Shown here: positions 27,110 to 31,456 of the stretch, in pieces
Numbering within the stretch: position 1 is the first letter of the stretch
Layout of the letters: every line of letters begins with the position of its first letter
Translations under genes and position numbers: made by a program
Notes under the pieces: generated by a model
Databases searched by the model: none
What the model was told of the DNA's origin: nothing
What the model saw: only the letters and a program-made list of their open reading frames with translations
IMG/VR virus record: IMGVR_UViG_3300047300_000133
Location: 1 to 35,853 of that record
Source of the DNA: a virus
Strand: one strand, 5' to 3'
DNA: 35,853 nt

Positions 27110-27148
27110 GAAGCCTCTAAGGTGGGCAACAATCACCAAAGAGGCTTC
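27110..27148 (+). other. Stable stem-loop between genes
   Basis: GAAGCCTCT (27110-27118) pairs perfectly with AGAGGCTTC (27140-27148). Inside, after a symmetric AA/AA internal loop, GGTG (27121-27124) pairs with CACC (27134-27137) around a 9-base loop. The total is 13 pairs. No T-run follows, so it is not a typical rho-independent terminator. It could protect an mRNA end, mark a processing site, or act as an RNA protein-binding element. It sits 6 bases after one stop and 29 before the next start. Confidence 0.65.
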
Positions 27149-28296: not shown

Positions 28297-28450
28297 AAAG
28301 GGAACTTCTGATAAAACCCGACAATCCAACATTGCCAAGGAAATTGCTGCTGGTAAGCCACCAAAACAAGCAGTGGCCATTGGGTACGCCGTTCAGCGCG
28401 AATCCATTGCCAAAAAAGGTGGAAAGGCCGAGGCTAAAAAGAAAAAATGA
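28286..28450 (+). CDS. Short basic GKPxKQAVAIGYAV-type phage protein
   Basis: From ATG 28286 the product is 54 residues: PLKKGTSDKTRQSNIAKEIA, then AGKPPKQAVAIGYAVQRESI and a poly-Lys end (AEAKKKK). The pattern KKGTSxxTxxxNIxxEIAAGKPxKQAVAIA is widespread in small phage proteins near packaging genes. A function is not known to me. It is very basic and may bind DNA. An upstream in-frame start exists but lies in another gene. Stop overlaps the methyltransferase start. Confidence 0.75.
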   Translation: MPLKKGTSDKTRQSNIAKEIAAGKPPKQAVAIGYAVQRESIAKKGGKAEAKKKK

Positions 28451-29607
28451 TACAAATTAAGGAAAAGCTAGTATCAGAGCTAATCCCTTATGTAAAAAAC
28501 AGCCGCACCCACTCTGACGAACAAGTGGCACAAATAGCGGCAAGCATCAAGGAATTTGGCTGGACTAACCCGATCCTGATTGATGGCAAAAATGGCATCA
28601 TCGCAGGTCATGGGCGGCTCATGGCCGCGAGAAAGTTGGGGCATACGAAAGTCCCGACCATTGAGCTAAAAGACCTGACCGAAACCCAAAAGAAGGCTTA
28701 CATCATTGCCGACAACCGCCTGGCGCTAAATGCAGGGTGGGATAACGAGATGCTGAAGCTGGAATTTGACGAACTAGCTGAACTTGGCTTTGACCTTAAT
28801 TTAACTGGTTTCAGCTTAGATGAAATAGCCGCCCTTACACCTTTGGTTGTTGAAGAAGGTTTGACAGATGAAGATGCTGCCCCTGGCTTGCCTGATGAGC
28901 CTATAACCAAAGTTGGTGATATATACCAACTTGGTCGCCACAGGCTGATGTGTGGCGATTCCACAAGTCTTGAGGCTGTGGATAAGTTAATGGATGGCAA
29001 CAAGGTAGATATGGTATTTACCGACCCTCCTTACAATGTTGCTTTTAATGGTCGTTCTGGCAAGCATGAAGTCATTAAAAACGACAATATGCCAGAAGAT
29101 CAATTTGCAGATTTCATTACAGAAGTATGTAATACAATTCGTGCTGTTGACCCAAAAGTTTACTATATTTGGTGTAATTGGAACTTTTATGGCGTTTTGC
29201 AGGACAAGCTAGATTACAAATCTTGTATTGTTTGGGCTAAAAATGTATTTGGCATGGGAAATGGCTATCGCCACCAACATGAGTTTTGCTTGTTCAACGG
29301 CAAAATTGACCAAGAGATCAAAAACGAAAGCGATTTGTGGAACATTAAGAAAGACACAAATTACGTTCACCCCACACAAAAGCCAGTTGCTTTGTCTGTA
29401 AGGGCATTTGGTAACCATGTAAAGCTACTTAATGTGTTGGACTTGTTTGGCGGCAGTGGTAGCACACTAATTGGCGCAGAGCAGACAGGGCGTAACGCTT
29501 TCCTTATGGAGTTAGACCCAAAATATTGCGATGTGATCGTAAAACGTTGGGAAGATTTCACAGGCAAAAAAGCCCAACTACTTACACAGGAGACGCAAAA
29601 AGTGTAA
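28447..29607 (+). CDS. ParB/Srx-like domain fused to N6/N4 DNA methyltransferase
   Basis: The 386-residue protein starts with a ParB-like domain (SELIPYVKNSRTHSDEQVAQ, and the IIAGHGRLMAARKLG box at 51-65). After an acidic linker it continues as a beta-class amino-methyltransferase. Catalytic DPPY lies at 193-196, HPTQKP at 308-313, and the cofactor-binding LDLFGGSGST at 331-340 comes last, as the class requires. It methylates adenine N6 or cytosine N4. Next to the terminase genes it could mark DNA before packaging or protect it from restriction. The ParB-like part may help DNA recognition. Confidence 0.92.
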   Translation: MIQIKEKLVSELIPYVKNSRTHSDEQVAQIAASIKEFGWTNPILIDGKNGIIAGHGRLMAARKLGHTKVPTIELKDLTETQKKAYIIADNRLALNAGWDNEMLKLEFDELAELGFDLNLTGFSLDEIAALTPLVVEEGLTDEDAAPGLPDEPITKVGDIYQLGRHRLMCGDSTSLEAVDKLMDGNKVDMVFTDPPYNVAFNGRSGKHEVIKNDNMPEDQFADFITEVCNTIRAVDPKVYYIWCNWNFYGVLQDKLDYKSCIVWAKNVFGMGNGYRHQHEFCLFNGKIDQEIKNESDLWNIKKDTNYVHPTQKPVALSVRAFGNHVKLLNVLDLFGGSGSTLIGAEQTGRNAFLMELDPKYCDVIVKRWEDFTGKKAQLLTQETQKV

Positions 29608-29634: not shown

Positions 29635-29991
29635 ATGTCAGAACAGCACATTCCAACCAATGAGCAGCGCCGTTTGGTCGAATCGACCAGCGGTTTGGGC
29701 TTGCCGCAGGAGCAAATCGCTATCCTTGTGGACATAGATGAAAAGACTTTGCGTCTGCATTACCGCAAGGAGCTTGATGCTGGAAAAGCCAAAGCCAACG
29801 GCCAGATTGCCAAAACGTTGTTTTCTAAGGCTGTGGCCGGCGACACGACTAGCTTGATTTGGTGGACAAAAAGCCAAATGCGTTGGTCTGAAACTGTTAG
29901 GCAGGAGGTTACTGGTGCAGACGGTGAGCCATTGCAGGGTATTCAAGTCACGTTTGTAAAGCCTGAAAATCGGTCTGATGACGCTGGATAA
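29635..29991 (+). CDS. terS: Terminase small subunit
   Basis: The 118-residue protein has an N-terminal HTH (NEQRRLVESTSGLGLPQEQI, then AILVDIDEKTLRLHYRKELD) and a helical core with GQIAKTLFSKAVAGDTTSLIWWTKSQM, a typical small-terminase layout. It should recognise the packaging start and stimulate the large subunit. No ribosome site precedes the ATG; instead TATAAA lies directly upstream (GTTTATAAAATG), so it may be translated leaderless or by coupling. An inverted repeat (AAGTGT/ACACTT) precedes it. Its 3' end merges into a structured spacer. Confidence 0.87.
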   Translation: MSEQHIPTNEQRRLVESTSGLGLPQEQIAILVDIDEKTLRLHYRKELDAGKAKANGQIAKTLFSKAVAGDTTSLIWWTKSQMRWSETVRQEVTGADGEPLQGIQVTFVKPENRSDDAG

Positions 29992-30150
29992 ACGTAACCA
30001 GCACTAACACGCATGGGGATTGCGCCGCAGTCAAAGTTGCTGCCTGGTTTGAAGGGCCAGCCAGTCCCCAGCCGTGTTGGTGAATGAAGAACCCGCAAAA
30101 AGTCGGCGAGCCGTCCGAGCCATGTCGGGGATAAACGGCCCACCAACAAC
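29983..30150 (+). ncRNA. Candidate structured RNA between terS and terL
   Basis: The spacer is GC-rich and holds no convincing gene on this strand. Bases 30002-30022 pair with 30062-30082: 19 of 21 positions, two of them G-U, with one 2x2 internal loop. Inside are two hairpins, 30027-30043 and 30044-30060, making a three-way junction. A further hairpin at 30110-30139 pairs GCCGT with ACGGC and CCGA with TCGG. CACCAACA (30141-30148) can pair perfectly with 30075-30082, competing with the outer stem close to the terL ribosome site. A small stem (29983-29987/29998-30002) covers the terS stop. Confidence 0.55.
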
Positions 30151-30163
30151 TTAAAAAGGAAAA

Positions 30164-31456
30164 ATGTCGCAACTCGTAAAAGATGCAATCGCAAAGGCTC
30201 AGTTTCCCTACAAACTGGCCTGTCTGTTTGACCCTCCAAAGGCTCGGTATCGAGTGCTTTACGGTGGTCGAGGCGGTGCTAAGTCTTGGGGTGTGGCAAG
30301 AGCTTTATTGATTAAAGGCGCAAAAGACTGTCTCCGTATTCTGTGCGCCCGTGAGTTTCAGACTTCTATTAAAGATTCGGTGCATAAACTGTTGTGCGAC
30401 CAGATCGCTGAGCTTGGCCTGACTTCTTTCTATGAGATAACCCAAACCTCAATCCGTGGAGCAAACGGTACTGAATTTAGCTTTGTTGGTCTGAAAAACA
30501 ACGTGGCTAACGTCAAATCTTACGAAGGCGTGGATATTTGTTGGGTTGAAGAAGCCCAGACAACTAGCCGACTGTCCTGGAACGTGCTGATTCCTACCAT
30601 CCGTAAGAACGACTCTGAGATATGGGTGACGTTTAACCCAGAGCTTGAGACAGACGAAACCTATCAGAGATTTGTGCTGAATCCTCCAGAGGGCGCAATC
30701 GTTCAAAAGATTAACTGGTCGGATAACCCCTGGTTTCCTGAAACGCTGGATGCAGAGCGTCAAAACCTCAAGATGCGCGACCCTCAAGCCTATAACGTGG
30801 TTTGGGAAGGATTGTGCCGCCAGACCGTAGACGGAGCGGTATTTGCGCGTGAAATGCAAGTCGCAGAGCTTGACGGACGGATTACTAAAGTCCTTTACGA
30901 CCCCACAAAGCCTGTTCATGCCATTTTTGACCTTGGTTGGTCGGACGCTACCGCTATCTGGTTTCTCCAATTCATTGGCATGGAAACCCGCTTAATTCGA
31001 TACATGGAAGGCAACCAGCAGACCATGAGCGAGTATTTGGCTAAGATGCAGACACTGGGGTACATCTATGACACGCTTTGGCTTCCACACGATGCAGAGA
31101 ATAAGACGCTGGCAGGAAACGGCCGCAGCATTGAAGAAATCGTTAGGGCTGCTGGCTACAAGACTCGGATTATTCCTAAGACTCCTATTCTGGACAGTAT
31201 CAACGCTGCGCGAACAATATTCCGTAATTGTTGGTTTGACCGAGATAACTGCCACGAAGGATTGCAATGCCTACGTCATTACAGATATGACGTTGACCCT
31301 GAGACTAAGCAATTCTCAAAAACACCAGTTCACGACCAGTATTCACACGGTGCTGATGCCTTCCGCTACATCGGTCTGATGGTTAACGAGCCAAGACAAA
31401 GACCAAAGCAAAAACCCAATACATACTATGGCGGTGCTAATAGTTGGATGGGTTGA
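30164..31456 (+). CDS. terL: Terminase large subunit
   Basis: The 430-residue protein has the ATPase and nuclease halves of large terminases. Walker A is GGRGGAKS at 34-41, and Walker B with catalytic Glu is VDICWVEEAQ near 125. A coupling motif (WVTFNPE) follows. In the nuclease half are HAIFDLGWSDATAIWF with the first metal-binding Asp, and SHGADAFRY near the end. It belongs to the PBSX/Terminase_3-like group. It packages DNA into the prohead through the portal. A run of A and AAAGGA precedes the ATG, immediately after the structured spacer. Confidence 0.95.
   Translation: MSQLVKDAIAKAQFPYKLACLFDPPKARYRVLYGGRGGAKSWGVARALLIKGAKDCLRILCAREFQTSIKDSVHKLLCDQIAELGLTSFYEITQTSIRGANGTEFSFVGLKNNVANVKSYEGVDICWVEEAQTTSRLSWNVLIPTIRKNDSEIWVTFNPELETDETYQRFVLNPPEGAIVQKINWSDNPWFPETLDAERQNLKMRDPQAYNVVWEGLCRQTVDGAVFAREMQVAELDGRITKVLYDPTKPVHAIFDLGWSDATAIWFLQFIGMETRLIRYMEGNQQTMSEYLAKMQTLGYIYDTLWLPHDAENKTLAGNGRSIEEIVRAAGYKTRIIPKTPILDSINAARTIFRNCWFDRDNCHEGLQCLRHYRYDVDPETKQFSKTPVHDQYSHGADAFRYIGLMVNEPRQRPKQKPNTYYGGANSWMG

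Follow-up and report, generated by a model that had tools for sequence, protein, structure and literature searches.

What occupies the spacer between the two terminase genes of this freshwater phage, and does it belong to the gene that follows it? The window, by which we mean the whole stretch of 35,853 nucleotides analysed here, encodes on its + strand the terminase small subunit (terS, 29635..29991, 118 aa; ORF list and PHROG terS matches of homologues) and the terminase large subunit (terL, 30164..31456, 430 aa; Pfam Terminase_3, E 2.8e-37). The spacer between them (29992-30163) is 172 nt long and has a GC content of 55% versus 46% for the whole window; only about 1% of stretches of this length reach such a GC content, and the gap is indeed distinct in length and composition, as an earlier note on this DNA had claimed. 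That note saw in it possibly a new RNA, either a switch controlling terL translation or a packaging-related RNA. The likely terL ribosome site, AAAAAGG at 30153..30159 on the + strand, was assigned from the sequence; it is located outside all of the stems described below and is un- or weakly paired in the fold. Upstream of terS, the window carries a fusion of ParB-N with an N6/N4 DNA methyltransferase (28447-29604) and, at 27110-27148, a further intergenic hairpin, GAAGCCTCTAAGGTG / CACCAAAGAGGCTTC, which does not belong to the X frame described below.

The terS–terL junctions of related phages were surveyed using TerL and TerS relatives in IMG/VR, the contigs being partly common to both scans. 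Because terS and terL overlap in about 137 of the 149 related junctions, mostly by 7-38 nt as judged by predicted start, the window spacer is, on this comparison of sequences, an insert. It has three parts: a short element, a unit X and a unit Y. The TerS of relatives typically ends at about residue 110-112, overlapping terL. The non-overlapping junctions carry inserts of 57-504 nt, mostly related pieces in various combinations: X alone (L004), X with another Y (L005 and L006), a Y of the L005/L006 type with a shortened front (L008, L015 and L021), a hairpin with X and Y (L044), three units in tandem (L045), X with Y (L061), the short element by itself (L359) and, in L371, the short element, X, a tRNA-Asn gene, X and Y. 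A gap of 1017 nt in L060 was rejected as a mis-assigned TerS hit.

The first part is a short two-hairpin element that starts with AATCG (29968..30002, + strand) and was seen independently in dozens of phages. Hairpin A pairs GTC 29973-29975 with GAC 29980-29982; hairpin B, which shows covariation, pairs GCTGG 29983-29987 with CCAGC 29998-30002 across the loop ATAAACGTAA. The final terS codons and the stop, which ends at 29991, fall within this element. The second part, X, is a stem-framed unit of 81 nt (30002..30082, + strand), delimited by folds, by an alignment of seven phages with pair counts and by a frame pattern scan. Its frame consists of the stems P1 (30002-30011/30073-30082) and P2 (30014-30022/30062-30070), and its inner module of two hairpins (GCAG/CTGC at 30027-30030/30040-30043, and 30045-30049/30055-30059). 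The 21-position stem first described at 30002-30022/30062-30082 is present, with U·G pairs at 30005/30079 and 30020/30064 and a CA/GC 2x2 loop, as is the three-way junction that the inner hairpins form within it. By itself, X has a folding energy of about -41 kcal/mol, with z -4.5 versus dinucleotide shuffles (0/200 equally stable), and it exceeds in fold stability all 895 sampled 81-nt + strand stretches of the window. The fold of the whole spacer alone is unremarkable (z -1.9), so the case stands on the relatives.

The 3' arm of X is common to the third part, Y (30075..30148, + strand), which was delimited in the four relatives W, L181, L214 and L411. The Y closing stem, 30075-30082/30141-30148, is the competing pairing that had been proposed earlier, and it is present as stated: CACCAACA at 30141-30148 pairs with TGTTGGTG at 30075-30082, the same bases as are used by P1 of X. 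The hairpin once placed at 30110-30139 fared less well, as a hand alignment of the four Y units, on which the Y structure is based, favours helices at 30092-30095/30126-30129 and 30103-30106/30115-30118; GCCGT/ACGGC (30110-30114/30135-30139) is possibly a pseudoknot or an alternative pairing.

Comparison between phages supports a structured RNA. In the seven-phage alignment of the window X, 99% of the cells pair and seven pairs are changed on both sides, compared with a shuffled mean of 1.4 (0/500 shuffles reach seven) and with 0-1 double-changed pairs in slid controls; the aligned sequences are related and hence not independent. Hairpin B of the short element shows double changes in three of its five pairs (11 cells), and the stem around the 14-nt core of this element is extended by at least three pairs in 43/107 occurrences. 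A set of 146 frames, retrieved by a sequence pattern in which P1 and P2 are largely fixed, contains 301 G·U pairs versus 14 A·C mismatches, and the + strand is therefore the RNA strand. X-frame units are non-coding: frame lengths are evenly spread over the three phases from a conserved ATG (54/48/44), and in-frame stops are found in 68/146 units. Compensatory change thus exceeds the shuffled and slid controls, with no conserved reading frame. A search with Rfam 15 (4227 models, including phi29 pRNA, GOLLD, ROOL, tRNA and tmRNA) gave zero window matches at the gathering score; the best permissive match was mir-432 on the minus strand (E 2.6). The idea of a new RNA is therefore well supported by the covariation, by the lack of an Rfam match and by the non-coding character, and the alternative against which the earlier note had set it, conservation as a mere coding frame, does not describe these units.

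The frame is not peculiar to this phage. A pattern of the X frame alone (consensus AACACG-CA-TGRGGATTG / CARTCCYCA-GC-CGTGTT) retrieved more than 120 IMG/VR stretches among the matches listed, and the X-frame family is apparently widespread in phages and undescribed so far. X units, either single or arrayed, lie in intergenic gaps with a median length of 392 nt; several copies per phage can occur, also as tandem arrays, and Y is often the second unit, stem-closed by means of the GTGTTGG arm of the X frame. The competing pairing is general to this repeated frame, since for CGTGTTGG/CCAACA the Y partner is present in 108/146 units versus 21% of shuffled 5-mers. In the same 146 units, CCAAGACG, which has a G:G mismatch in P1, was found in 40/116 first array units versus 1/30 later units.

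Within the frame, the modules are exchanged. The 88 non-redundant X sequences have highly diverse interiors. The window X module recurs in L264, L279, L281, L412, L413 and L414, and the window Y recurs in L181, L214 and L411, giving a Y family of four members; strict scans for the two modules retrieved 6 and 3 contigs only, respectively, so that each is individually rare. X and Y modules are paired differently among phages, and one same module occurs within X frames, within Y frames and outside either. L413 carries the window module inside a rewritten frame, CCAACAAG-TC-TGGGTGTT / AGCACCCA-GA-CTTGTTGGTG, in which P1, the internal loop and P2 are altered on both strands together in a compensatory manner; in L270, as in L413, the frame sequence differs and the fold is kept. 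A Y-type module containing TTTGTAATGGGT and GCCAAAGAACCTTTCAGTAGGGCGC is common to phages with Klebsiella, Pseudomonas and uncultured freshwater hosts (L406, L407, L409 and L223), enclosed by differing closing stems. Against phage isolates, blastn of Y alone recovered nothing beyond a chance match of 23 nt, the window spacer had no match in E. coli genomes and plasmids, and the exact frame and short-element patterns were absent from 84,980 bacterial genomes. The window's own modules show no likeness to any RNA of known function.

Sporadic presence, tandem copies, conserved ends and exchangeable interiors would also be expected of a hairpin that moves or recombines as DNA, in the manner of a MITE or an integron attC site and free of any RNA function. 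The units do resemble attC in that imperfect hairpins are chained, with conserved ends and variable middles. Nevertheless, we consider this reading improbable. Pairing shows an RNA-type G·U bias on one strand, compensatory changes are also found inside the modules, and the L413 and L270 frames differ yet keep the fold. By eye, the frame arms read CACTAAC/GTTGGTG and lack the attC core (RYYYAAC/GTTRRRY), the arrays are without cassette ORFs, and an unsystematic look recognised no target duplication.

The genes beside the units bear on what the RNA may do. X units neighbour DNA polymerase, methyltransferase, HNH endonuclease, primase, head, terminase and tRNA genes. PHROG matches place terS downstream in at least 11 of 76 cases and terL in at least 8 of 76; terminase genes, at least 19/76, are the most frequent there, yet a minority, and DNA polymerase and ParB-methyltransferase are also found. 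Upstream, HNH endonuclease is the most frequent match (9/69), others being primase, terminase, ssDNA-binding protein and major head protein. In L153, an X unit stands directly before a homologue of the window's ParB-N/methyltransferase fusion.

This wide range of neighbours argues against both functions proposed in the earlier note. A terL translation switch would operate through the mutually exclusive P1 stem of X and closing stem of Y, both of which use 30075-30082. However, identical competing arms precede unrelated genes, the terL ribosome site is outside both stems, the insert is sporadic and most relatives have overlapping terS and terL with no spacer; across the related junctions and the neighbour survey we found no conserved association of the element with terL. 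The switch is thus unsupported, and we rate it very improbable. A packaging RNA, or a pac/cos signal for the terminase, appears less probable still: it would suit the prominence of terminase genes downstream and of HNH endonuclease upstream, but most copies lie beside non-terminase genes, several can occur in one phage, most close relatives do without the insert and no Rfam pRNA model matches. A phi29-type pRNA was rejected as a candidate since the element is absent from most related terS–terL junctions and most copies lie by other genes.

The main rival is an element that acts in cis on the mRNA, in which the short element would be an antiterminator made of RNA alone and X/Y a stabiliser against exonucleases or a gene insulator. 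No promoter or terminator was called near the window unit, which lies inside an operon, so a cis role is conceivable; the downstream gene is co-directional in 60/76 cases. The short element consists of two adjacent hairpins placed before ribosome sites and before arrays, and the put RNA of phage HK022, which binds RNA polymerase, likewise has two stem-loops in ~70 nt (PMC9378689). This likeness, which concerns the short element alone, is one of layout; its two hairpins, of which B covaries, fit in 35-50 nt, and the element is smaller than put. Moreover, a stabiliser would not need highly diverse inner modules, the downstream gene is on the opposite strand in 16/76 cases (by crude ORF calls, as for the co-directional count) and many arrays adjoin tRNA genes. 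We therefore regard a cis-acting element as unlikely, albeit a serious competitor.

Association with tRNA genes is a recurrent feature of the family. tRNA genes are found within or adjoining arrays, in L277, L371 and L408 a tRNA CCA end marks the start of a unit, and one Y unit itself matches the tRNA model. Modules resembling tRNA, in which the acceptor, D and T arms are good but the anticodon region is enlarged, were observed in L272 (minus strand, 2791-2888) and L407 (~1380-1500); that of L272 matches the Rfam tRNA model with 43 bits over 98 nt, with no ARAGORN call there.

A weak blastn match of the window pointed to Sasha-like and Carvaje phages, in whose gaps the short element occurs together with X-like frames that differ in sequence (AACAGGTAAGAGCATTG / CAGTGCTCTTTCCGTT). 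In HK620, an array sits between PR'/qut and the tQ terminator, and its Y module (GAATGCGCAGGCTGATGCGC...GCCGGAGATCAGC) is also found in the freshwater phages L275, L193 and L189; kinship to the HK620-type arrays is based on layout and common modules rather than on a scored model. The HK620 late-leader array (NC_002730 15713-16263; L404:1900-2450) matches 153/5426 complete E. coli genomes, and its best prophage matches have no annotated feature beneath. At ~2000-2195 of L404 (HK620) we observed an unannotated tmRNA-like RNA of enterobacterial phages, carried by arrays of the HK620/Carvaje type and also present in L163, L405, L410, L286, L330 and others; the HK620 copy has 762 matching phage records. 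Its GCAAACGA... frame encodes 12 different tags, each of 10 residues followed by a stop, 3' of a conserved fold (for example, ANDDVVLMAA, ANDEQFLAVA, ANEEMYLAVA and ANDDLMLMAA). Rfam tmRNA models gave sub-threshold matches only to this RNA, and no tRNA-like domain was identified in it. In a 2014 list of ssrA-bearing phages, mycobacteriophages and Bacillus phage G were the only ones named (PMC4131195).

The comparison as a whole shows a fold kept by compensatory change, an RNA of the + strand, a non-coding sequence and units that are gained, lost, chained and recombined between phages. We conclude that the spacer is probably a copy of a modular phage RNA cassette, most likely a stand-alone RNA co-transcribed with the structural genes. 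This reading is favoured because the cassettes travel independently of genes, occur in tRNA neighbourhoods and have tRNA-like and tmRNA-like sister modules; terL would then merely be the next gene. The RNA would be made within the structural-gene transcript, and its closing stems may cause it to be cut out of the transcript, through RNase action at these stems, or to be protected in it. It could then act in trans, with translation or the RNA enzymes of the host as possible targets, as some of the sister modules are tRNA-like or tmRNA-like. A broader proposal, which we advance tentatively and with less confidence than its converse, is that unrelated phages trade small folded RNA modules as cassettes from a common pool, some modules being tRNA-like or tmRNA-like and many of no assigned kind, and each set in a standard stem frame. 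Together they would form a general RNA toolkit directed at the translation and RNA machinery of the host, and the window would have one such cassette.

A folded-RNA family of this kind would imply that annotation has overlooked a repertoire of mobile, modular RNAs in phage intergenic gaps, and interchangeable modules set in stem frames would offer phages a new route to the evolution of RNA functions. The family is common in environmental phages, yet it is outside Rfam and, as far as open-access papers and a minority of preprints show, outside the literature, so that an earlier description may exist elsewhere.

Among known systems, the stable RNAs C and D of phage T4, small, without assigned function and located among phage tRNAs, are presumably comparable, the likeness being by description only; to our knowledge, neither has an array or a frame-and-module build. 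Likeness to tRNA and tmRNA is limited to the sister modules, in the form of tRNA model matches and tmRNA-type tags, and the window X and Y match neither model. GOLLD and ROOL, which are large, structured and non-coding, are encoded by phages and prophages, frequently in the vicinity of tRNA genes (PMC12286853). The window family shares with them a phage origin, high structure, lack of coding, frequent proximity to tRNA genes and the absence of an assigned function. Nevertheless, there are clear differences: GOLLD and ROOL are single large RNAs (GOLLD often >800 nt) with Rfam models of their own, which fail to match here, whereas the window family consists of exchangeable 70-170-nt units set in a common stem frame.
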